64,000 bases of DNA from Nitrospirales bacterium (GTDB lineage Bacteria; Nitrospirota; Nitrospiria; Nitrospirales; UBA8639): assembly GCA_022828225.1 (NCBI GenBank), contig JAJEJG010000008.1, positions 62,001-126,000 on the forward strand. Reading direction: 5' to 3'. This document shows, piece by piece, positions 8,581-24,149 of this stretch. Positions within the stretch are counted from its first letter, which is position 1. Each line of letters starts with the position of its first letter. Position numbers and translations under genes: made by a program. Under the pieces are notes generated by a model that saw only the letters and a program-made list of their open reading frames with translations, made no database searches and was not told the origin of the DNA.

Positions 8581-8630
8581 CCGGCTGCTTGCAGGAAGGT
8601 CTTGTTCCTCCCACTCAGACTAACCCCTCT

Positions 8631-8731
8631 GTCATCCTCGACATCCTTAATCGAGGATCCAGCGTCTTTGCTTTTTAATTCATTTGTGAAGAAACGACAC
8701 TGGATTCCCGATTACTAACGTCGGGAATGAC
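8631..8731. repeat. Two short palindromic repeats (TCGAGGAT / TCCCGA type)
   Basis: Two hairpin-forming units of one dispersed family lie head to tail: the first pairs ATCCTCGA with TCGAGGAT and the second pairs ATTCCCGA with TCGGGAAT. Both carry the linker (C)AGTGTCTTTG or its complement. Other family members occur near 12230-12320, 31872-31916, 32909-32941, 41543-41580, 42056-42150, 42714-42770, 50561-50745 and 56876-56921, always outside genes. They resemble REP-type elements. Confidence 0.8.
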
Positions 8732-8798
8732 AAATTTGAGGGGAGAGGAGTTCGGCCATCCCCCTGAGAAGGGGGATTGAGGGGGTTGTCCCTCACAC

Positions 8799-11700
8799 TC
8801 AGAAGCCCCACTGCACCTGGAGCCGGACCCCCTGGTTCACCGGCTGCGGGCCGACTGGCTCTTGCCGCGTGCCTTCCAGGTTCAGGGTTAGCCCGGTCAC
8901 GCTGGCCCATCGCGTGCCCACCTGGTACGTGCGATCGGCTCCATCCGCTAAGATAGTCCCGGCATACGGCGTCAGCAGCCCGGCATCGAACGCCGCGAAT
9001 CCATAACCCATCTCCGCGTTCACTCGTCCGGCCTGCCTCGCGCCAGCCCCCAATCCCGTGGCCGTCTGTTGGGACCACAGGGCGTCGACCCCACTGGCCG
9101 CCACGCCCCACGTCGGGGAGAGCGTCAGCGATAAGCCATGACCGCCCACGCCAGGGGCTAGGCGCACCGTCCCACTGGCTCCCCATTCGTCGTAGTCATC
9201 GTCCTCATGGGCCACCAAGCCACGGATCGAGGCCTCCACGGTCAACCCGAGTCGAGGATCGGCATAGTGCACACGGCCGCCCACTTCGAGGCCAAAGCCC
9301 GTCTCGGCATCGCCCCAGTCGTGTCGGACTCCTACTTCCATCGTCGGGGTGAGGCTTCGGCCATCCGCCCACGTGATACCCTGTGAGCCTTCCAGGACCA
9401 CCCGCACCCGATGGGCATCGGCATCCGCCGCGTCCATGCCCTGCACGGCATCCGAACTCGTATTCGTGAACATGGCATCGGTCCTGGTGGCCAGTTGGAA
9501 GGTACCAGACGACAGCACTACGCCTCGTCCCCCGACAGCCCCCATCATGAACTGCGTATCGGTTTCGTAGCGGCCGCCGTTGTCCTGCACCAACTCCGTT
9601 TCGCCCCAGCCATAGCCTATTGAGCCCCAAATATCGAGCCGATCGGTCACGGCATAGCGCACATACGGATGCAGACTCGTGAGGCTGTTTTCCAAGTCGC
9701 CCGTGTCTTCCTTGCCCCCGTAGGTGCCATCCCCACGGGTATGCGCCACGGCCAGTCCTACGAGGAGCCGATCCCAGGTGCCATCCACGCCGACCGTGCC
9801 CGTGAACACGTCGCCGTCCAAGTCCAGGTCGCCATCCTGCCCGTTGAACGTAGTGCCCGCGAACCGACCCCACGCCGTCAGGTGCGGAGAGGAGGAGTCA
9901 CCGCCCCCCGCACCCATATTCAGGCGGAACGAACTCCCTAAGAGGAGTTGTCGGAGATCGACGGTGGGAGCCTGTCCTGACTGAACCCCAAAGAGATTCG
10001 CGAACCCTGCCATGGTCTCCGATTGCCCGAGCTTCTGCCCGCCGATGGTCAGGTGAGTCTCGCCTTGATCGGTGCGTAAGCGTGTGCTGATGGCGTCCGT
10101 GACGTGGGTGCCCACGGTACGGCCGAAGCGGGCGAGCCAGGCTTTCGGGAGGGGATCGTCGTTAGTGATCGTACCTGTAGCAGTAGGCGTCTTGATGTAA
10201 ATGGGGTGCCGATTGCCAGAAAACAGTCCTAGCTCATAGGCTTCGGTGATTTCCATGACCACGGTCTTGCCGCTATTGTTGATCGCATCATCTATGATCT
10301 TCACGCCGACGACCTTGCTGGTTTCTCTTGGCCCGAACAACATCGGTACATCGCCGCTCGCATGGAAATTGATACCCGCACGTGCCGACCCAGCATCGGT
10401 GGTACGTACCACCACTTTATGCACTTTTCCGCTTGACCTCGATAGCGTAACGGTGAAGTGCAGCACCCCGCGTTCCTCATCAGCGGTCGCGTCCGCGATG
10501 GATACCGATAACTCAGGCTCTTGTGGTACCAACTCGATTGTGGCGGTTTCGTTCAACGGTCGTCCGTCTGTCGCACAGATGGCTCCGCTCCTGATTCCGC
10601 TTTCGGAGCAGGTACGGTTGCCGGCAAGCGTCAGGGTGACGGTCCCATTAGGCTCATTCGGCTTGACTTCGAGCTTCCACTCCGCCGTCACGGACTTGGT
10701 CCCACCGTAAACCTCCATCTTTTCCTTTCGGAACCGCTTTGCACTGACGATCACTCCGCCAGCCACCTCGAAGGCATCCTCTTTCATGGTGCGCCACGGC
10801 ATCCACATTTTTTCGCTTAATGTGAGTCTAGCCGTGTATCGCATCTCGCCTTCAGCATCGATGATTTGGCCGGTTTGACGAAGGGATGCGGTCAGTGGGA
10901 CGAACTCCACGAGGGCATCGCCCGACGGAAAGGCAACGCTGGTTAGCTCATTCTCAAACCCTGTATCGTCGGTAAACCGCACCCGAACCTTGATCTTCTT
11001 GCCATCATCGTCTGCACTTAGCGTGTACGTGCTCGATGTGGCGCCAGTGATGTCGATTTCCTCGGAGCCGTCCACCCTGATCCACTGGTATTCGTAGCTA
11101 ACCCCAGTCAGACCGTTAAGGTCGACAATATCGCTTGTCAAAGCGGTCAGTCTGTGACCTACCACGTCACCGATCGTCGGTGCCCCGGTAGACGGGATGT
11201 CAACCGCGCCACTAATTGCAAACCCGAAGGAATTCGCCCAGTCCGTCCAATCCCTACCGTTCGTGCTAAATCTTGAACTATTGGCAATGCTCCAATCATC
11301 CTCGGTTCCAGTTTCTCCATCAGAACCTGCCCTGAGCCTTAGGGAAGAAGTGCTGCTGTGCACCCGAATAAAGTATGTGCCTGCGGCAAGCACCGCCCTG
11401 TTGTTTGCTGTAAAGGTGTTCGATCCGGTCGATAGTGAGCCTGAAAGGGTAAAAGCGGTCACGCGACCCCCAGGCCTTGAGCTATCGTTAGAGTGTGGGC
11501 GGTGGAGGGAGACCTCAACGTTCGCCCCGCTGGGCACCGAGTTGAACGCAAGTATTACCGAGGCAACCCTGACATTCTCATCACTATTGATCGTAAAAGA
11601 CTGAGTGAAGTATTGGCGGCCAAAGAAAGAGATAAAACTCCCAGTAGAAATATTGCTGACTAAGGTTGTATATTCTTGTGCGTGAGCAGGCTCCCCCAGA

Positions 11701-11858
11701 AACACGAACACGGCCGTCAGCGTGAGCAGAATCAGTAGGGATGCGGTGAGAAAGCGAAACATGGCGGGAAGGTGTGCCTCGGCAACAGATGGGGCTAGGT
11801 CTTCTCTCTCTCTCTCTCTCTCTCTCGCTCTCTCTCTCTTCACGAAACGTGCCAGCAT
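8799..11858 (-). CDS. Large surface protein: Ig-like, Calx-beta and C-terminal outer-membrane barrel
   Basis: The 1019-aa protein has a hydrophobic signal core (residues about 36-60, ending AHAQ). It continues with beta-rich repeats, an Ig-like segment (about 215-310), a Calx-beta type domain (about 450-565, ending GTITNDD) and a C-terminal autotransporter-like barrel of about 330 residues ending in Phe. It is probably inserted in the outer membrane with the repeats exposed. The ATG at 11858 has a strong GGAGGGGAGG ribosome site; a second in-frame ATG at 11762 sits directly before the signal core but lacks a good site. Between them a CT/GA dinucleotide tract encodes Arg-Glu repeats, so copy-number change would switch the frame. 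Adhesion or a barrier role is possible but unproven. Confidence 0.8.
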   Translation of the reverse strand: MLARFVKRERAREREREREDLAPSVAEAHLPAMFRFLTASLLILLTLTAVFVFLGEPAHAQEYTTLVSNISTGSFISFFGRQYFTQSFTINSDENVRVASVILAFNSVPSGANVEVSLHRPHSNDSSRPGGRVTAFTLSGSLSTGSNTFTANNRAVLAAGTYFIRVHSSTSSLRLRAGSDGETGTEDDWSIANSSRFSTNGRDWTDWANSFGFAISGAVDIPSTGAPTIGDVVGHRLTALTSDIVDLNGLTGVSYEYQWIRVDGSEEIDITGATSSTYTLSADDDGKKIKVRVRFTDDTGFENELTSVAFPSGDALVEFVPLTASLRQTGQIIDAEGEMRYTARLTLSEKMWMPWRTMKEDAFEVAGGVIVSAKRFRKEKMEVYGGTKSVTAEWKLEVKPNEPNGTVTLTLAGNRTCSESGIRSGAICATDGRPLNETATIELVPQEPELSVSIADATADEERGVLHFTVTLSRSSGKVHKVVVRTTDAGSARAGINFHASGDVPMLFGPRETSKVVGVKIIDDAINNSGKTVVMEITEAYELGLFSGNRHPIYIKTPTATGTITNDDPLPKAWLARFGRTVGTHVTDAISTRLRTDQGETHLTIGGQKLGQSETMAGFANLFGVQSGQAPTVDLRQLLLGSSFRLNMGAGGGDSSSPHLTAWGRFAGTTFNGQDGDLDLDGDVFTGTVGVDGTWDRLLVGLAVAHTRGDGTYGGKEDTGDLENSLTSLHPYVRYAVTDRLDIWGSIGYGWGETELVQDNGGRYETDTQFMMGAVGGRGVVLSSGTFQLATRTDAMFTNTSSDAVQGMDAADADAHRVRVVLEGSQGITWADGRSLTPTMEVGVRHDWGDAETGFGLEVGGRVHYADPRLGLTVEASIRGLVAHEDDDYDEWGASGTVRLAPGVGGHGLSLTLSPTWGVAASGVDALWSQQTATGLGAGARQAGRVNAEMGYGFAAFDAGLLTPYAGTILADGADRTYQVGTRWASVTGLTLNLEGTRQEPVGPQPVNQGVRLQVQWGF
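11803..11839. repeat. Dinucleotide microsatellite (TC)12-G-(CT)6
   Basis: Twelve uninterrupted TC units (11803-11826), one G, then six CT units (11828-11839) lie inside the start region of the surface-protein gene. On the coding strand this is a GA/AG run of Arg-Glu codons. Such tracts are prone to slipped-strand mispairing. Confidence 0.95.
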
Positions 11859-11945
11859 GGCGACCCTCCCCTCCGTTGGCCTCAGGGATCCGCTGAGGAA
11901 ACTCCCGCGACATATTAGACTGCAGAGTCAGACTCGGTGATGGGG

Positions 11946-11974
11946 AATGTATTATAATTTGATCTATAAGTCAA
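11946..11974 (-). promoter_or_regulatory. Candidate promoter of the surface-protein gene
   Basis: Reading the minus strand, TTGACT (11974-11969), a 17-bp spacer and TACATT (11951-11946) fit a sigma70-type promoter. The start would leave a leader of about 80 nt before the ATG at 11858. A TATAAT also lies in the spacer. Confidence 0.4.
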
Positions 11975-12347
11975 GAACGTGGGAGCTTCTCCTGTTCACC
12001 TGACATGAGGCCGGAGGGCATTATGGTAGGGTTCCCCGGAAAAATCAGTATGCTTTCTATGATGACGATCCCATGCTTAAGTTCCTCAGGACGCCACACC
12101 GCCACCAGATCGGCGTCATGTTCAAGGGAGCCGTCCCATGATTCGTCCGGATTCAGGCTGACGGCTTGACGCCATTCAACAAGTTGCGCGGTGACGGCTT
12201 TGGTTGGTTTGATTCAGCAGGAAAAAGACACTGGATTCTCGCGTTCGCAAGAATGACAGAAGGAAAAAGAAGGAAAAGCAAAGACGCTGGATTCTCGATA
12301 AAAGCTGTCGGAAATGACGGTAAATCGTGTAAGGGGAACAGAGAGGC
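11975..12347. other. Intergenic stretch between surface protein and zinc-ribbon gene
   Basis: It holds two dispersed palindromic repeats (near 12230-12260 and 12280-12320). On the minus strand there is an open frame of about 80 codons (11971 to about 12211) without any usable start codon; its translation (for example ADLVAVWRPEELKHG) looks protein-like and may be a gene remnant. Nothing else is recognisable. Confidence 0.4.
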
Positions 12348-14495: not shown

Positions 14496-14894
14496 TCATT
14501 CCGTGGCTCGCAGCCGGCTCAGCCGTCCCCTCCAACCGAGAATGCGTTCGTCGGCGGTGACGAGCCGGTGGCCTGCAAGCGCGGTTGCGACGATCAGGCG
14601 GTCGGCCGGGTCGGCATGAAAATCGCCAAGGCTGGTCGCCCGGATTCCGATCTCTCCGTCGACGGCGATTTCGATCAGACCCTGTTCCAATTGCTCCCGA
14701 CGCCACAGGCCGACGTCTTCGGGGAAACTGATCCGTCCCCTGTCCTTGAGCATCGCCAGTTCCCAGAACGAGATCGCAGACACGCCGACTTCACCGGATT
14801 GCCAAGCCCGGTCGATCTCGCGTCGGGCCTTGGTTCCCAATCGCGCCTCACCCGTTCTCAGCCACAGCAAGACGTGGGTATCGAGGAGCATCAC
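14496..14894 (-). CDS. PIN-domain toxin (VapC-like)
   Basis: The 132-aa PIN protein shows the ordered acidic residues of the family: D5 in LLDTHVLLW, the Glu of SFWELAML near residue 65, and D-x-D-R near residue 97 (HADPADRLIVATAL). VapC toxins cleave specific RNAs, often initiator tRNA or the rRNA sarcin loop. Its start overlaps the antitoxin stop by 4 nt (ATGA), so synthesis is coupled. Confidence 0.85.
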   Translation of the reverse strand: MMLLDTHVLLWLRTGEARLGTKARREIDRAWQSGEVGVSAISFWELAMLKDRGRISFPEDVGLWRREQLEQGLIEIAVDGEIGIRATSLGDFHADPADRLIVATALAGHRLVTADERILGWRGRLSRLRATE

Positions 14895-15166
14895 CTGTTA
14901 CCATCCCGGGTCGCGCCGGTGTTGGCTTCCCACTCCACGTCCAAAGGCTCGATAATGTCGCCAAGGATCTTGATGCGTCCCTTGTCGATGCCAAACAGAC
15001 TCTTCGGCTTCTCCCGGTAGGGCACCAGCCGCGAAACAGGCTGGCCGTTCTTGGTGATGACAATCTCTTTGCCGCTGTCAGCCACCTCGTCCATCAGCTT
15101 CAGACACTTCGCCTTGAACTCGGACGCCTTGACCGTGCGGGCACCAGCGACTCTATCGTTACTCAT
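14891..15166 (-). CDS. Phd/YefM-family antitoxin paired with the PIN toxin
   Basis: The 91-aa protein has the Phd/YefM N-terminal DNA-binding fold (VKASEFKAKCLKLMDEVADSG, then IVITKNGQPVSRLVPY) and a C-terminal Asp/Glu/Trp-rich tail that would wrap the toxin. Such antitoxins repress their own operon. A near-perfect inverted repeat inside the promoter spacer at 15209-15228 is the likely operator. Confidence 0.85.
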   Translation of the reverse strand: MSNDRVAGARTVKASEFKAKCLKLMDEVADSGKEIVITKNGQPVSRLVPYREKPKSLFGIDKGRIKILGDIIEPLDVEWEANTGATRDGNR

Positions 15167-15328: not shown

Positions 15329-15476
15329 CTATCCGCTGCCTTGCAGGATATCGAACGGGGAGAAATCATCGGTCAAGATGAGACCGGGGTTCCAGGCCGG
15401 GGCTCTGGCGGCATTCAAGAAGGGCAGGACTTCGGGCGGCATTTTGCCTTGGTTTAGCAGGGGAATCGTCGCCAGG
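15329..15476 (-). pseudogene. Orphan 3'-end fragment of a spermidine-synthase-like gene
   Basis: These 148 bp match the last 148 bp (stop codon included) of the intact gene at 22602-24149 at about 88% identity by eye. The encoded 48 residues differ at only about five positions, and most nucleotide changes are synonymous. The match starts exactly at the stop codon and ends abruptly, with unrelated sequence on both sides. The fragment therefore diverged as part of a working gene and was placed here later, as at one end of an inserted island. Confidence 0.85.
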
Positions 15477-15791
15477 GAATTGCGCCTGCCGGGCACCAAG
15501 ACCGAGATGGTTGGGAAGGCCCCTGTACTCGCATGACCCGCAGCCCGATGTTCAATGCGAACCTCGGACGACACCGACCAGTTCATAACCTTACATCGGG
15601 AAATCGCAAAGTGATCTTATGAGCGAACCTGACGGACACTACCGTCATGATCAAAGAATGTACGGTCCCACCTCCAGCACTGCGCCCTATTCGGGCGTCA
15701 GATCCACCGTCGATTCCATGATACGGTGAAGCAAAAGACAGATGGCTCTGGTAGCGAGGCTCGTCACAATGAACTCTTAGGCTATATCGCA
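15477..15791. other. Intergenic stretch inside left end of the putative island
   Basis: No gene with a credible start or motif is seen. It separates the orphan fragment from the end of the nitrilase-domain gene. Confidence 0.4.
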
Positions 15792-17813
15792 CTACAGCCC
15801 TGCAGGAGGATACTTCCACGAAGCAGTTCGGTCGTGGCGTTCCAAAAACGTACTGATATCGTCGATATCGAGAAAGGCAATCAATGCCTGCGGTTGACCA
15901 TGCGTGTGGAAGATCTGCCTGACATGCTCGGAATCTCTGGGCCAGTATGCGTTGCTCCCACCGTACTGACCATTGTTGGCCACAATTACCAATTGGAACA
16001 TGTGGTAGTGAAGAGCTAGGGCCATCTGGTCGAACGTCTTTACGTCCTTGTTGAGCGCCGGGATTGCGAAGACATCTGACAGGCCCCTAAGATCTGCGGC
16101 CAATCCGAGGTCCGTCGCGTCGTAACACACGGCCGCCGTCAGCCAGACTGGCTTGGCGCTTGGCTCGTCCGACCACGGATAGCCTACCAACCACTGACAT
16201 GGTCGAAAACCCTGGAGACGGGGCACACCGCCGTTAAAAACCTGTTCATCTGGTGCGAGATTCGCCTTTCCCTGACGACAAATTCTGACCTGCAGCCCGT
16301 ACGCGTTGGACCACTCCGGAATGATCCACAAGGCCGAATTAACAAGAGGCTGACCGACCAATAACCGTTCGTACGTCAACCCGGTCAGGATCATAGCCCT
16401 GTGAGCCCGCGCAAAAGGGACCAGATGAGTACGAACGTCGCTCGGATGGACGGCCAGTTCCGGAAGAATCAGCCAATCGAGGTGCCCATTGCCCGTATGC
16501 GTCTCTCTCAACACCAGCATGCGGTCCACAGCAGCAAGAGCCGCCGATAGATGGTTGCGGTGCCTTTTTCGAATAGTGGGATCGTCAAGCGCTAGATCGG
16601 GTTTCTTGAAGTCGTCGCCCCCCGGAATGACTGTCTGGACCACACAGGCGCGTAAAGTTCGAGTGTCTTGCATGGTGGTCGGGCGCTCCAGTATCATAGG
16701 CAGCATCAGCGTCCCGGTGGCCTTTCCCAAATATTTCTCGAGTTCTTTGATCCTCTTTGTGATTTGTGTGATCACACCGTCAAGGCCATGTTCGATCGAC
16801 TCAAATCCTTCGGAAACGCGGCACCCTGGCCAACGAAGGAGGGACAATAGAAATCGCTCCATCCAATCGGTGATGGGTAGCCAATCATCTCCGAAGGCCT
16901 GCTGACCACTGAAGAGACCGTACAGCCTTTGGTACCAATGGCTCTCGGCTTGGCGATAGACCGACTCATTCTCTTTCCAGTGCAACGGGCGTATTGGACG
17001 GGTGAAATCTAGATGCCCAGACAAGATAAACCGCAACAAATATCCGAGATGGAATCGCCACTGTTCGGTTTCTGCACACCACCTTGGAGGCTCATATAAA
17101 AAAACCAAGGGGGCGCCCCGACTGGCCAGGATCCTCACCTCCTCTACATCAGCAATCCCATTGCGATCCACCAACTTCAGGTGTACTTGCACTGGCATTA
17201 TTGCGCGTAGCGGATGTTCCTGTTGCCGCCACTCCTTCAAGAAAGCATTCCCAAAACGCAGTAGAGACAGTTCGTTCCGGAGGCAACTGTTCGGATGGTC
17301 ACGTAAGACTATTTTTTCAAGAGTCTCCGACTCACCGGTCGGACTCCGTGCGACGCGGGACAAATCCCCAAGGAGATTTGCTGGAAGGTCGTCGAAGAGG
17401 AGTTCATCGGTATTGGTTAGCTCCATGAAAAATGAAGGGTCCCTACGTGCGATCTGCCGCTCGCGCAAGGTATTGAGACTCGACCGTGTAAGCTCAATGG
17501 CTCTCTGGCGATCGACAAATGCACGCCTAGCAAGAATCGCGAGTATCGAAAATTCTGTACTGTCGAGCCAGTCACTCTCGCCACGGAGGAACCGAATCAG
17601 TTCCCGGTAATGGCGCATTTCTGAACCAGATCCCGTGCGTACGATTGGTGCGCTAGAGGGAGCAAAGGCAGCCAAAAACAGTAACGCCTGTTGGCGCAGG
17701 TACCAAGGAATTGTCCGCCCCGGCAAGGCTACCAGACGAGATGCTTCCTCGCGAAGGGCTTCACGATAGGATTGCAGATCAATGCCAAATGGCAGCAATT
17801 CACCGTCTGCCAC
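15792..17813 (-). CDS. C-terminal nitrilase-domain protein encoded with a reverse transcriptase (split DRT1-like)
   Basis: The 673-aa protein has a helical N-terminal region without recognised motifs (1-380) and a C-terminal carbon-nitrogen hydrolase fold (about 386-650). The nitrilase triad appears intact: E452 in ILPELAVHP, K516 in RQGKANLAP and C563 in AVCYDATD. In the known DRT1 (UG1) defence systems a nitrilase domain is fused to the C terminus of a reverse transcriptase; here the two are separate genes. The GTG start lies 14 nt inside the end of the RT gene in another frame, and the nitrilase frame stays open upstream of the GTG, so coupling or an old frameshift-split fusion are both possible. 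Antiviral function is inferred. Confidence 0.8.
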   Translation of the reverse strand: MADGELLPFGIDLQSYREALREEASRLVALPGRTIPWYLRQQALLFLAAFAPSSAPIVRTGSGSEMRHYRELIRFLRGESDWLDSTEFSILAILARRAFVDRQRAIELTRSSLNTLRERQIARRDPSFFMELTNTDELLFDDLPANLLGDLSRVARSPTGESETLEKIVLRDHPNSCLRNELSLLRFGNAFLKEWRQQEHPLRAIMPVQVHLKLVDRNGIADVEEVRILASRGAPLVFLYEPPRWCAETEQWRFHLGYLLRFILSGHLDFTRPIRPLHWKENESVYRQAESHWYQRLYGLFSGQQAFGDDWLPITDWMERFLLSLLRWPGCRVSEGFESIEHGLDGVITQITKRIKELEKYLGKATGTLMLPMILERPTTMQDTRTLRACVVQTVIPGGDDFKKPDLALDDPTIRKRHRNHLSAALAAVDRMLVLRETHTGNGHLDWLILPELAVHPSDVRTHLVPFARAHRAMILTGLTYERLLVGQPLVNSALWIIPEWSNAYGLQVRICRQGKANLAPDEQVFNGGVPRLQGFRPCQWLVGYPWSDEPSAKPVWLTAAVCYDATDLGLAADLRGLSDVFAIPALNKDVKTFDQMALALHYHMFQLVIVANNGQYGGSNAYWPRDSEHVRQIFHTHGQPQALIAFLDIDDISTFLERHDRTASWKYPPAGL

Positions 17814-19464
17814 TAGCCCCGTCTCGGTTGCTCCGGCTCTCAGGATCTCCGAAAGGCAATACCAAGCGACCCTTCTGGGCGCCTTGCGCCGTCCGCCCTT
17901 CTCCGTGAAGGGTCGAAGCAGGCCAGAGATCTAGACCGATTCGCAACAGTCTAACGTTCGACGGGTCCTCCATCCAGCGCTGGATCAAGCCGAGCGCGAA
18001 AGCTTGGGCATCCTCATCCAAATCTTGTCGAGTCCGCGCCGGGCGCCCGAGTCCAACCGTTTTGTTTGCCACTCCGTCTGTATCGGCCGCATCCGCAAGC
18101 AAAGGCCTAATAGACCGGAAAGTCGTCCGAAAACGGGCCGCCGCGAATCTAGCCACCGTCTCGTCACGTACGTCGGAAACCGGGGATAGTTGCCAACCGC
18201 TATCGTCCGCCATACTGAGCGCCTCTTGAGAGCGCATCAGACCCTGAATCGCATCAAGAATATCTTCGCCACCGAGTGCATCGAACCCTCCAGAGACCGC
18301 GGTCTGGATTCGACGCATTCTCGCGCTTTGACGAACCAACGGGCGCTCATCGCCGCCAAAGACCGTGATCTTGGTCTTCTCAGCAGACAACGTAAGGCAA
18401 GTGGACTCCTCGTTGAGGATCTCATCCAACCAAGCGCAGACCTCATTTTTGACATGTTCGGCTGTAGCCTCTGCTGGTGCCCCAACAACAACCGTAAGGC
18501 GTAGGTCATCGACGTACCGGCATGCGTCAGCCAACTTAATCTCCGGTCGGATTTCGGTTCCAATGGCCTGTTGCAAACGGGCATCGAAAGACAGCAGGAA
18601 GACGTTCGCAAAGAATCCTGAAGCGACAAGTCCCTGTGGCAGAGCAACTCGTTTGAAGTCGCTAAGTTCGGCTTGCTTTGCATAGATCCCAACCTCCTGT
18701 ACGTCACGCGAATCCCAAGTCCAATCCAGCACGGATGTCGCAAGATCGAAGAAGTCTGAATCATCCCCTTCTCGATGGATACGTCTCATTGCTGAGGCAA
18801 GGAAATTCGGACGGACACGGTCGTAAAACTGACGGAAATCCGAATGGACCACGAACACCCGATTCCCGTTCGCGTTGAAGTTAGCCTCGGCTGCTACTTC
18901 GGGGCGCGCAAGAAATGTCCGGTAGTCCTGAAAGTATGACCGGTACAGTTTGGCGGATCCCCACCGGTGGTGCAGCTCACCCTCGTTAGCGTCGCAGAAC
19001 AGGCGATTGCCGTATGACACGACCCGCTTTCGAGATTGTTCGTGGCCTATCGGGCTCCGGGGATCCCCTTGAGAGGATTCAACGCGATCAGCCAAGCACA
19101 GCATGAGCGCCGTGGCGACCACTTGGTCGGCGAGATCGACATGGGCCAACGGCCGAAGTCGCCCCGCAGTCGAACTTTTTTCAACAGGCTCCCAGGCACC
19201 GGATGCAGAGCGGACGCTCCAGCGCTGGCTCTTTGGCGCCGGGATGATACGAAGGGGACTGTTCTGCCAACTTTCTGGCGACTGCAAACGCTCACGAAGT
19301 TCACCAAGAAACTGTGGAAGGTTCACTGCGGCGCGGTCGAGCGCAAGTGTGTCCGAGAACCAATTGTGGTAACGAATGTAAGCGGCAGTCTTCTTCCAAG
19401 CTTGGACAAGAACATACTCCTCGCAGAGTAGATCCCGCCGGGGGCAGAGCGTCACCGGAATCAT
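17800..19464 (-). CDS. Reverse transcriptase of the UG/Abi (defence) type
   Basis: The 554-aa protein has the RT catalytic core: motif A SDFRQFYDRV with D209, motif B-like LPQGLVASGFF (275-285) and the active site YVDD at 317-320, followed by AEKTKITVFG. It lacks maturase X and HNH domains, so it is not a group II intron protein, and no msr/msd or CRISPR array is nearby. Together with the overlapping nitrilase gene it resembles DRT1-type anti-phage systems. The ATG has an AGGGGC ribosome site. The C-terminal 170 residues are helical and of unknown role. Confidence 0.88.
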   Translation of the reverse strand: MIPVTLCPRRDLLCEEYVLVQAWKKTAAYIRYHNWFSDTLALDRAAVNLPQFLGELRERLQSPESWQNSPLRIIPAPKSQRWSVRSASGAWEPVEKSSTAGRLRPLAHVDLADQVVATALMLCLADRVESSQGDPRSPIGHEQSRKRVVSYGNRLFCDANEGELHHRWGSAKLYRSYFQDYRTFLARPEVAAEANFNANGNRVFVVHSDFRQFYDRVRPNFLASAMRRIHREGDDSDFFDLATSVLDWTWDSRDVQEVGIYAKQAELSDFKRVALPQGLVASGFFANVFLLSFDARLQQAIGTEIRPEIKLADACRYVDDLRLTVVVGAPAEATAEHVKNEVCAWLDEILNEESTCLTLSAEKTKITVFGGDERPLVRQSARMRRIQTAVSGGFDALGGEDILDAIQGLMRSQEALSMADDSGWQLSPVSDVRDETVARFAAARFRTTFRSIRPLLADAADTDGVANKTVGLGRPARTRQDLDEDAQAFALGLIQRWMEDPSNVRLLRIGLDLWPASTLHGEGRTAQGAQKGRLVLPFGDPESRSNRDGASGRR

Positions 19465-19603
19465 GATGGAGCCCCTGGATGCAGTTGGGTGTGAGACATT
19501 GACCTCTCAGCGGGAAACCAGATCAACAGTTTTGCGTGCGCACCAGCGCCGCACCGACGCGCCGAATATAGTCCCGTCTCACCGGCTATATGATCGACAG
19601 TAT

Positions 19604-20025
19604 CTATAGGCACGAGGATGACCGTCCTTCGCGCGCCCGGACGACAGCCGGGCACCGTTCACTCACAATGAGGGAAGCGCCGTATCTCCTATTCTGGCGG
19701 TCCGAGGCGTCATCAAGGAAGGCCTTGAGGGCACCCGTCCCGGAATCGAGGAACTCATCCCATTTCTGGACATATTCCTCGTAGCGCTCGGCAAAGCCTG
19801 GAAAACAACCGTGCAAAATTTTCAGCATGTCGTCACCATTGCAGGACAACTGCCGCACCTCGGGCATCTTTTCGATGTGTTGCCCCGCATAGTACAGCGC
19901 CTCTTCGATCAGAAATCTGCCTTCTGGGGCTCTACCATGAGTTCCATGGGCGTCATGTCTTCGAAGCTCTTCAGAATTCCGGTCGTCGCAGTCTCCAGCA
20001 AGTTGGTCTCATCAAGACTTATCAT
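19604..20025 (-). pseudogene. Frameshifted hypothetical gene upstream of the RT
   Basis: An ATG at 20025 with a GGGAG ribosome site opens a frame that ends at a TGA (19911-19909) after QKADF. Reading one base back (adding one C) continues directly into FLIEEALYYAGQHIEK and then an 87-codon frame ending at 19604. Together they give a coherent helical protein of about 140 aa. A one-base deletion, a sequencing error or a programmed -1 shift could explain it. It is co-directional with and just upstream of the RT, so it may be a lost third component. Confidence 0.45.
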
Positions 20026-20299
20026 GATTGCCGGTGCTCCCGCCACGACAAAAAAACGCCACGCCGCCCGATGAACTATGATCGTAGAGCGTGCGCTATC
20101 AATCCGGCGCGCCATGGCACGTTTCGCCAGCCACTCTCCCCGCCTCCTTCTTTTTCATAAGAGAACGAGAACAAGGGGGACATCACAATCTTGCACAAAA
20201 GGAGACATTTCAAAATTGCGTTGACAGACGTCGTGCGGGGTCTTGACGCAACTCTTGAACCGTTTTAAGCTTAGTCGGGCTTAGCTCTATGAGGATCCA

Positions 20300-20554
20300 A
20301 TGAAAGTGAACATGCACGAGGCCAAATCTCAGCTTTCGAAGTTGGGCAAACTGGCGTGGGAAGGTGAAGAGATCGTGATTGCCAAGGCTGGCGAACCTTA
20401 CCTGCGGTTAGAGCCGTACAGAAAACCGAAGGGCAAGCGCAAGCTTGGAGCGTTGAAGGGGCAGATCTGGATTGCTCCGGACTTTGACGAGACACCCAAG
20501 GACATTATCGATTCGTTTTGGAATTCGAAGATATTCCCGGATGAAGAGGAATAG
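20300..20554 (+). CDS. Phd-family antitoxin
   Basis: The 84-aa protein shows the prevent-host-death pattern (MKVNMHEAKSQLSKL, then IVIAKAGEPYLRLEPY) followed by an acidic C-terminal tail (DEEE) that would neutralise the toxin. Its stop overlaps the toxin GTG by one base. A TTGACA-like element lies upstream in a region rich in short repeats. Confidence 0.85.
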   Translation: MKVNMHEAKSQLSKLGKLAWEGEEIVIAKAGEPYLRLEPYRKPKGKRKLGALKGQIWIAPDFDETPKDIIDSFWNSKIFPDEEE

Positions 20555-20934
20555 TGGCACGCTTACTACTGGATACCCATGTCCTCCTGTGGTCGCTCAC
20601 TGAACCGCAGAGGTTAAGCAAGCGTGCTCGTGAAGTCGTCGAAGACCCTCGAAGCGAAGTCTTCGTCAGTTCTGTCAGCAGCTGGGAGATCGTCGCCAAA
20701 CACGCGTTGGGGAAGTTGCAAGCTCCGGAGAACCTGGAAGCGAGTATCAAGAAACAGGGCTTCACGCCACTCTCTCTCACGTTTGGTCACGCGGAACAGG
20801 CGGGTGCTCTTCCGCCGCACCACGGCGACCCGTTCGACCGGATGCTGGTCGCCCAAGCCCAAATCGAAGGACTCATCGTTGTCACCAGAGACCGCCATAT
20901 CTCCCGCTACGACGTGCCCACGATGGCGGCGTAG
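20554..20934 (+). CDS. PIN-domain toxin (VapC-like)
   Basis: The 126-aa protein has D6 in LLDTHVLLW, a Glu in SSWEIVAKHALGKL and D-P-F-D-R near residue 93, the usual PIN metal-binding set. The GTG start overlaps the antitoxin stop. It is the second such module within 6 kb, but the protein is clearly different from the one at 14496-14894. Confidence 0.87.
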   Translation: MARLLLDTHVLLWSLTEPQRLSKRAREVVEDPRSEVFVSSVSSWEIVAKHALGKLQAPENLEASIKKQGFTPLSLTFGHAEQAGALPPHHGDPFDRMLVAQAQIEGLIVVTRDRHISRYDVPTMAA

Positions 20935-21194
20935 ACGAACGTCCACCCCTACGCGACCAAGTCCGATGACGTATCCGGCACGTGTTCCATGTCTACCCGA
21001 CGGTGCCGTCACCATACTATGAAAGCGGGGCAGGAGCATGACGGGAGAGCAACGCGGCGCAATCACTTTGTACTCGTCGCTCTCATCGGATCAGCCACAC
21101 AAGTGAAAGGTCCATCGCAACCACGCTCCGTTCTCATTCCTCTCGCGCAACGCTCCATGCTGATGGACAATGAGAGAAGGGAGTTCTTGCCATT

Positions 21195-22559
21195 GTGACA
21201 CGACATCGCCCCCGGCATCACAGCGGCCCGTCAGGCTTCCGCACGGTCGAGGAGCGTAGCCAGGACTTGGCTCAGATTGATCTCAACGCCGAGTTTCAAT
21301 ACACCATCGACTTAATTGAGCAAGGCTGTCCGTGCCTATTTCTGACCGGTAAGGCCGGAACGGGAAAATCGACCCTGTTGCACCACATACACAAGACGAC
21401 CACCAAGGCCACGGCTGTCCTGGCTCCGACCGGTGTGGCCGCCCTCAACGTTGGCGGCCAGACGATCCATTCCTTTTTTCAGTTTCCGCCTACGCCGATT
21501 GATCCGAACAATATTCGTAAACACCGGAATGCAAAACTGCTGCAAAAATTGGAGACCCTGATCATCGACGAGGTGTCCATGGGCCGGGCCGACGTGATGG
21601 ATGGAATTGATAAGGCCCTGCGTCTCCACCGGGACGACAGTGATACGCCGTTTGGTGGGGTTCAGGTTATCTTGTGTGGCGACCTCTTCCAACTCCCGCC
21701 CATCGTCAGAGATGGAGAGATGAAAACCTTCTTTGACGAGGAGTACGGGGGGCCTTACTTCTTTTATGCCAAGGTTTTTGCAGAGTTGGAGCCCTATTCG
21801 GTCGAACTCACGACCGTCTACCGCCAACACGACGAGGATTTCATTTACGTGCTGAATAAAATTCGCGAAAACAACGTCGATGCCGAACTGTTCGCGATGC
21901 TAAACACCAGGGTGCAACGCGACAAAGAACCGTCACAAGACGAATCTTTCATTACGCTGACTGCCACCAACCAGGCCGCATTTCTGAAGAATCAAGCCTG
22001 TTTGGATCGCCTGCCGAAGCGGGCGTACACCTACCCGGCAGAGGTCAGCGGGCAGTTTGAGGAATCCATCTTTCCGACCGAAGAACTGCTGGAGCTGAAA
22101 CCCGATGCCCAGGTCATGCTGATCAGAAATGATCCGTACAAACGCTGGGTCAACGGCAGCATCGGGCGGATCAGTACATTGACTGATGAAAAAATCTGCG
22201 TTGAGATTGGCGGGACGTCCTACGAGGTGACACCGGAAACCTGGCAAAATATCCGATACCGCTACAATCGGGAGACGAACCAGATTGAAAAAGAGGAAGT
22301 TGGCAGCTTTACCCAGTACCCGCTTCGGTTAGCCTGGGCCATCACCATTCACAAAAGCCAGGGCCAAACCTTTGACAAGGTCATGATTGATCTGGGACGC
22401 GGCGCGTTCGCGCATGGGCAGACGTATGTGGCGCTCAGTCGCTGTACGTCATTAGAAGGGCTCACCTTCAGTCGCCCGTTAACGCACAGGGATATTCTGT
22501 GTGATGAACGGGTGTACGATTGCACCCGGGTGTTTCCTCCGGCTCCCAGGCCGGGCTAA
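21195..22559 (+). CDS. PIF1/RecD-like helicase
   Basis: The 454-aa protein has Walker A GKAGTGKST near residue 55, motif Ia (APTGVAALNVGGQTIHSFF), Walker B LIIDEVSM, a Gln motif in DLFQLPP, and the C-terminal signature (AITIHKSQGQTFDKV, then YVALSRC) of superfamily 1B helicases. PIF1-like enzymes unwind DNA 5' to 3' and resolve G-quadruplexes and R-loops. In bacteria they often occur on mobile islands. The GTG start is chosen as the longest frame; its ribosome site is poorly spaced. It is the last gene before the right-hand repeat of the putative island. Confidence 0.88.
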   Translation: MTRHRPRHHSGPSGFRTVEERSQDLAQIDLNAEFQYTIDLIEQGCPCLFLTGKAGTGKSTLLHHIHKTTTKATAVLAPTGVAALNVGGQTIHSFFQFPPTPIDPNNIRKHRNAKLLQKLETLIIDEVSMGRADVMDGIDKALRLHRDDSDTPFGGVQVILCGDLFQLPPIVRDGEMKTFFDEEYGGPYFFYAKVFAELEPYSVELTTVYRQHDEDFIYVLNKIRENNVDAELFAMLNTRVQRDKEPSQDESFITLTATNQAAFLKNQACLDRLPKRAYTYPAEVSGQFEESIFPTEELLELKPDAQVMLIRNDPYKRWVNGSIGRISTLTDEKICVEIGGTSYEVTPETWQNIRYRYNRETNQIEKEEVGSFTQYPLRLAWAITIHKSQGQTFDKVMIDLGRGAFAHGQTYVALSRCTSLEGLTFSRPLTHRDILCDERVYDCTRVFPPAPRPG

Positions 22560-22601
22560 CGGCCACATATTTTTGCTCCCTCGCCATGGCCTGGTAGAGT
22601 G

Positions 22602-22749
22602 CTACCCGCTGCCTTGCAGGATGTCGAAGGGGGAGAAGTCGTCGGTCAGGATGAGGCCGGGGTTCCAGTCCGGGCCTCTGGCGGCATTCAGGAAGGGGAT
22701 GACTTCAGGCGGCATTTTGCCTTGATTCAGCAGGATCATCGTCGCCAGG
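22602..22749. repeat. Right copy of the 148-bp direct repeat (putative island end)
   Basis: It matches 15329-15476 at about 88% identity in the same orientation, beginning exactly at the stop codon of the spermidine-synthase-like gene. The 7.1 kb between the copies holds the RT-nitrilase genes, a VapC module and the helicase. Confidence 0.8.
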
Positions 22750-24149
22750 CCAAACTCGTCGGAGTCCATGTGCAACGGACGGGGACCGGCGAAGAAGATC
22801 AGGTTGACCGAGCCTGGTTTGGTACGCAACCAGGTCGGGGCGGGGATACTGTACGTTTCCACGTGCGGGAACGAGGTTTTCATCGTGGAGACCACGGCCT
22901 CGGCCCTGATCCGGTCCAGATCCGAATCCGAGGACGCCAGGTTCACCGCTACCACGCCGTCCGGGTTCAGGTGTGCCCGTAATTCCGTAAAAAATTCCGT
23001 CGTCGTCAGGTGAAACGGGATTTGGTGCCGGGCAAAGACGTCCACCCAGACGACGTCGTATTGCGTGGCCTTCCGTGCCAAAAAGACGCGCGCGTCCTGG
23101 ACGTGCACGTGGTGGTTGGCGGGCGTCTGATATTCAAAAAATTGCTCGGCCGCTTCGACGACGGACGGATCCATTTCGACCACGTCCACTTCCAATTCCG
23201 GCCAATGCCGCTCCAGCCATTTGGCAATGGACCCGCCGCCCTGCCCCAGAATCAGTCCCCGTTGCGGCTCGGGATGTAACGCCAGGGCCGCCATCATCAT
23301 TTGACTGTACGGCAGCGCCAATCTTACCGGATCGGGCTGCCACATGATCGCGTGGAAGGTATTGTCGAGCACGAGAAGTCGCAGGCCTTTCTCGTCGCGG
23401 ACCTGCACCTGCTGATATGGGCTGTCTTCCTGGTGGATCACCGGCGGATAGATGAGAACCGGGTGGAAGCTCAGCCAGACCAGCCCGCCCAGTATCCCGG
23501 CGACCGGTACCAGCGCCGCTCCTTTGACCCGGCGGCTCCACCACAACCAGCCCAAACCCAGGACCACCAGCACGACGCCCAGGACCGCGACCAGGGTCAA
23601 GCTCCCCAACCACGTCAACAGGAAAAACGACGTACCCCAGGTCCCGACCAGGCTGCCGACGGTGGAGATGGCGATCATCGCCCCGGTGTGCCGGCCCAGA
23701 TGTCCCATATCGGCGATAGCCAACCGCAGAAGCACGGGAAGGACACCGCTTAACCCGAAGGCCGGAACCGCCAGCAGGACGCTGGCCGCCAGACAGGGAC
23801 CCCATCGCGGGTCCGTGGTCCATTGCGAGACCGTAAACACGATCGGTTGCCCCACCCCGGCCAACAGGAGGGTCCACGCGCCCGAGCCCAACAGCAACCA
23901 GGGCAACACCGCGCCGGGCGTACGCCGGTCGGCCAGCCAGCCGCCGGTGGAATAGCCGCTGCTCATGGCCGCAAGGACGACCCCGATCAGCGCCCCCCAG
24001 ACGAACAACGAAGTGCCGAACACCGGGGCGAGCAGGCGACTGCCCAGAATTTCGAGAGCCATGACCACGGCTCCCGTGGTAAAGGCCGTGCCGAAAAACC
24101 ACAACCGGCCCCACGGGTCAGGCGATGCGGGAGTTACGTTCTCGTCCAT
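22602..24149 (-). CDS. Membrane-fused spermidine-synthase-like protein
   Basis: The 515-aa protein has six to seven transmembrane helices (about residues 15-225) followed by a spermidine-synthase-type Rossmann domain with the motif LILGQGGGSIAKWL and VDVVEMDPSVVEAA. This architecture is annotated as fused MFS/spermidine synthase; the real substrate is usually unknown, and the Gln in GQGGG deviates from the usual GGG. Its last 148 bp are duplicated at 15329-15476, so its 3' end probably served as a recombination or attachment site. Confidence 0.85.
   Translation of the reverse strand: MDENVTPASPDPWGRLWFFGTAFTTGAVVMALEILGSRLLAPVFGTSLFVWGALIGVVLAAMSSGYSTGGWLADRRTPGAVLPWLLLGSGAWTLLLAGVGQPIVFTVSQWTTDPRWGPCLAASVLLAVPAFGLSGVLPVLLRLAIADMGHLGRHTGAMIAISTVGSLVGTWGTSFFLLTWLGSLTLVAVLGVVLVVLGLGWLWWSRRVKGAALVPVAGILGGLVWLSFHPVLIYPPVIHQEDSPYQQVQVRDEKGLRLLVLDNTFHAIMWQPDPVRLALPYSQMMMAALALHPEPQRGLILGQGGGSIAKWLERHWPELEVDVVEMDPSVVEAAEQFFEYQTPANHHVHVQDARVFLARKATQYDVVWVDVFARHQIPFHLTTTEFFTELRAHLNPDGVVAVNLASSDSDLDRIRAEAVVSTMKTSFPHVETYSIPAPTWLRTKPGSVNLIFFAGPRPLHMDSDEFGLATMILLNQGKMPPEVIPFLNAARGPDWNPGLILTDDFSPFDILQGSG

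Follow-up and report, generated by a model that had tools for sequence, protein, structure and literature searches.

The closest described relatives of the locus considered here are the DRT1 systems, built around a reverse transcriptase (RT) of the UG1 group. In DRT1 the RT, a domain of alpha-helical repeats and a nitrilase belong to one chain. The protein carries out protein-primed, template-free synthesis of semirandom DNA on its own serine, and this synthesis drives the formation of nitrilase tetramers and dormant filaments (PMC13275509). Phage factors, including the T4 helicase Dda, activate the system, with nitrilase toxicity and abortive infection as the outcome, and mutation of the D324/D325 or C1116 residues abolishes defence (PMC13275509). 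An RT is also paired with a nitrilase among the UG5-type RTs and RT-associated nitrilases, covered in PADLOC by the models RT_UG5-nitrilase, RT_UG5_small and RTasNitrilase, the last being a separate nitrilase model.

Here we describe a drt1 locus in a stretch of 64,000 nucleotides from a Nitrospirales bacterium (contig JAJEJG010000008.1, positions 62,001 to 126,000), below called the window. A sequence-only reading had proposed that its RT and nitrilase, encoded in separate frames, form a two-gene variant of DRT1. Our data indicate that no new two-gene variant is present and that, most probably, a copy of the known defence gene has been broken here recently.

Two Halves of One DRT1 Protein

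The architecture given in the sequence-only reading, with two frames overlapping by 14 nt, a YVDD site at RT residues 317-320 and the nitrilase residues E452, K516 and C563, was confirmed on the minus strand:

17800..19464, minus: RT half of drt1 (UG1), a 554-aa frame with YVDD at 317-320 and Ser391 in a VSGGFD motif
17800..17919, minus: out-of-frame tail of the RT frame, without homology to DRT1 relatives
15792..17930, minus: second half of drt1, alpha-helical repeats and C-terminal nitrilase, with E452, K516 and C563 intact
15792-17813, minus: nitrilase protein as called from the open reading frame, 673 aa, GTG start

With the PADLOC Drt1a model, the RT aligns to profile positions 4-490 (E 1e-179, 598 bits) and the nitrilase protein to positions 535-1176 (E 7e-182, 605 bits); the two proteins are consecutive, complementary halves of one Drt1a profile, and the homology is full-length across RT, helical repeats and nitrilase. 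In the PDB, the DRT1 filament 9YFD was the only solved relative matched by either half. The assignment to the DRT1/UG1 family is thus upheld by both the profile and the 9YFD matches. The large helical N-terminal region of the nitrilase protein, earlier regarded as being of unknown role, is matched by the same profile and corresponds to the alpha-helical repeat domain of ordinary DRT1, a domain named as part of the published system (PMC13275509). Of the general-purpose models, RVT_1 of Pfam was barely over its cut-off for the window RT, and no NCBIfam model came near its cut-off for the proteins of the locus.

Other families were rejected on their scores. Membership among the UG5-small RTs or the RT-associated nitrilases was ruled out by PADLOC scores far below those of Drt1a (598 bits for the RT and 605 for the nitrilase): the UG5-nitrilase model gave 48 and 59 bits, respectively, RT_UG5_small gave 28 bits for the RT, and RTasNitrilase gave 203 bits for the nitrilase. 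The group II intron RT model scored 41 bits against a family cut-off of 300, and the retron St85 model 29 bits against a cut-off of 235; with both below their curated cut-offs, the earlier description of the enzyme as a non-intron RT holds.

Both active sites are intact, as previously claimed. D319/D320 of the RT align with D324/D325 of 9YFD, C563 of the nitrilase aligns with C1116, and the YVDD site as well as E452, K516 and C563 align with residues kept in every complete relative. All relatives have the serine of the motif V/I-S-G-G-F-D without exception, and the window RT has it too, as Ser391; in the pairwise alignment with 9YFD it sits two residues off the priming serine S402, and Ser391 may be the priming serine of the window RT. 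The C-terminal tail is shared with DRT1 as well, and all catalytic parts of the system are still encoded in the window. In contrast to the known system, the chain that joins the UG1 RT domain with its YxDD site to the C-terminal nitrilase with its catalytic E, K and C is interrupted here by a frameshifting deletion of 32 nt, and we therefore file the locus as a disrupted drt1 gene and not as a working DRT1 system.

A 32-nt Deletion inside the Helical Repeats

DNA alignment with the 10 nearest relatives reveals a clean gap of 32 nt in the window alone, directly after the conserved DLWP motif:

17921..17922, minus: site of the 32-nt deletion, with a position ambiguous by about a base

As 32 is not a multiple of three, the reading frame changes on passing from the RT part to the helical-repeat part. 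RT residues 1-515 are homologous to DRT1, and the last approximately 39 residues are an out-of-frame run-on. Downstream of the gap the nitrilase frame resumes DRT1 homology at once: it is open from 17930, with homology beginning at about 17921, so that the similarity to the fused protein extends about 36 codons upstream of the GTG at 17813. This upstream part reads LLRPFTEKGGRRKAPRRVAWYCLSEILRAGATETGLV, matching fused relatives, and the GTG itself encodes a valine within the fused protein (the valine of GLV, found in fused relatives). The 14-nt overlap exists because the shifted frame happens to reach a stop there, and is merely a consequence of the frameshift. In an AlphaFold2 model of this region, built from 21 relatives (mean pLDDT 76.7, about 84-93 near the site), the missing residues correspond to one complete predicted helix (102-112 of the modelled fragment) in a row of helices. 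According to the model, the break falls inside the folded helical-repeat domain, not at a linker.

Both frames are open together for about 130 nt, and a programmed frameshift could in principle restore one chain there. It would have to be a net +1 shift, the overlap contains no homopolymer run or canonical slippery heptamer, relatives need no shift, and the product would still be short of about 11 residues. For lack of a signal in the overlap we reject programmed frameshifting, which we consider barely conceivable.

Fused Genes in the Relatives

A genome scan yielded 24 drt1 relatives from several phyla. Each of the 23 that could be judged has one uninterrupted frame, 1216-1323 aa from stop to stop, with the RT motif; in the remaining one (L022) the contig ends after 599 aa, and it was left out of the fused count. 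The other drt1 copy in the same genus, from genome G010, is a single frame of 1284 aa, and a phylum-wide search of 396 genomes found only these two copies in the genus and no further ones. Two plasmid copies of drt1 are each annotated as a single long protein (1288 and 1235 aa by the annotated coordinates), and a search of viral contigs found no relative with the query used. In trees constructed for each half separately, the window groups with the same fused relatives, L024 and L001, inside the fused group, with modest support for its exact sister group in the RT tree. Its place inside the fused group in both trees indicates that the split is derived. We reject the two-gene variant on the fused state of all 23 judgeable relatives and of the G010 copy, together with the deletion in the window. 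As a separate observation, drt1 on a Sphingopyxis plasmid (L057, NZ_CP009431.1, 4492-6885) is annotated at only 797 aa and is apparently truncated, with an IS256 element located just downstream.

Could the two frames of the window nevertheless yield two polypeptides from one mRNA, translationally coupled and assembled via the RT/helical-repeat interface into a working two-chain DRT1? The stop of the RT frame lies 14 nt past the GTG start, a geometry that suits coupling, a GGGG stands a few nucleotides ahead of the GTG, neither half carries extra mutations, and PADLOC has separate RT and nitrilase models (RT_UG5_small and RTasNitrilase). However, no other locus is split among the relatives compared, the cut lies within a folded repeat domain and removes a helix, and the GTG is an ordinary conserved valine codon, a start at which loses about 36 more conserved residues. 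A search for a Shine-Dalgarno-like site ahead of GTG 17813 gave nothing better than the GGGG. We regard such a two-chain system as quite improbable.

Selection and the Age of the Break

In the RT half, none of the 116 columns invariant in relatives is violated; in the second half, 3 of 145 are, one of the three being the gap at the deletion. Violations in the window are about as many as in intact relatives. In both halves pairwise dN lies clearly below dS; as dS is near saturation, this contrast reflects long-term evolution rather than the period after the deletion. The lack of damage besides the deletion implies that the gene was lost only recently, that the sequence is wrong at this point or, as the least likely case, that the halves remain functional and under selection. 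An assembly or consensus error would mean that the organism has an intact fused drt1 from which 32 nt were lost in assembly. The genome is a draft in 24 contigs, and the otherwise undamaged halves would fit such an error as well; against this, a loss of 32 nt exceeds what base-calling or homopolymer errors usually produce, and there is no tandem repeat at the deletion junction. An error of this kind appears unlikely. Very probably, what the window carries is one drt1 gene (UG1 RT-nitrilase), located on a 7.3-kb defence island and disrupted by the frameshifting deletion.

Defence Island and Hotspot

The genomic island setting is a further feature shared with DRT1. The sequence-only reading had placed the locus among toxin modules and a helicase between island-like repeats, and the surroundings agree with this description:

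15329..15476: left 148-bp direct repeat, in which the 3' end of a spermidine-synthase-like gene is present a second time
20300..20934, plus: antitoxin-like frame and PIN-domain toxin (VapBC-like), on the island
21195..22559, plus: PIF1-like SF1 helicase of 454 aa, carried by the island
22602..22749: right 148-bp direct repeat, forming the 3' end of the spermidine-synthase-like gene (22602-24149), which is intact

The two direct repeats are 88% identical and enclose the 7.3-kb island (15329-22602), the cargo of which consists of drt1, the VapBC-like pair and the PIF1-like helicase; no integrase was identified on it. The spermidine-synthase-like gene is present in all 14 genomes of the genus, and the site was compared in loci L042-L050. 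Neither G003 nor G008 has a drt1 segment there, and the gene continues at its 3' end into the backbone. In G009 (L044) the site is occupied by type I restriction-modification genes together with a type II-like methylase and nuclease, in G005 (L050) by a type I restriction subunit, and in G010 (L042) by other cargo and an incomplete copy of the repeat. Within this genus, the spermidine-synthase-like gene thus has an integration/defence hotspot at its 3' end.

Two other observations concern the neighborhood. A second toxin-antitoxin pair, PIN/Phd-YefM, lies at 14496-15166, just outside the left repeat, and is also found at the site in several sister genomes. At approximately 8600-12330 the window has a 1019-aa Calx-beta/autotransporter-like gene (8799-11858) with a RERERERE stretch; several sister genomes lack it at the syntenic position, with 8581 adjoining approximately 12346, which makes it a second species-specific insertion.

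DRT1-Helicase Pairs

In three relatives drt1 is followed, with an overlap or within a few bases, by a gene for a RecD-like SF1 helicase of approximately 1260 aa, from the family of the defence candidate PDC-S68:

L003:11740-15525: RecD-like SF1 helicase beside drt1
L007:7968-11753: RecD-like SF1 helicase beside drt1
L005:11699-15508: RecD-like SF1 helicase beside drt1

L008 and L024 have fragments resembling the start of the PDC-S68 helicase, near 11664-11834 and near 11810-12092, respectively; in the window no remnant of it was found directly downstream of drt1. Dda, the T4 trigger of DRT1, is a 5'-3' helicase (PMC13275509). Since the trigger is itself a helicase, an operon of DRT1 with a helicase is worth attention.

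Discussion

By analogy, the intact ancestral gene would have worked like published DRT1. The deletion, by shifting the frame, would uncouple the RT chain with its DNA adduct from the nitrilase that it must assemble, and one helix of the repeat domain would also be lost from the product. With the RT chain no longer joined to the nitrilase and this helix missing, we infer that the window allele is inactive. Should the two frames after all make a two-chain DRT1, a quite improbable outcome as argued above, the DNA-adducted RT would not need to be covalently joined to its nitrilase effector.

The locus carries a warning, as ORF callers and readers would list it as a split RT and nitrilase system, although what they would be seeing is a single, already published defence gene that has suffered a deletion. 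The DRT1-helicase gene pairs of the relatives are a more useful lead than the window locus itself. The broken drt1 is also a further example of defence-gene turnover, at a hotspot whose content varies among the species of the genus.
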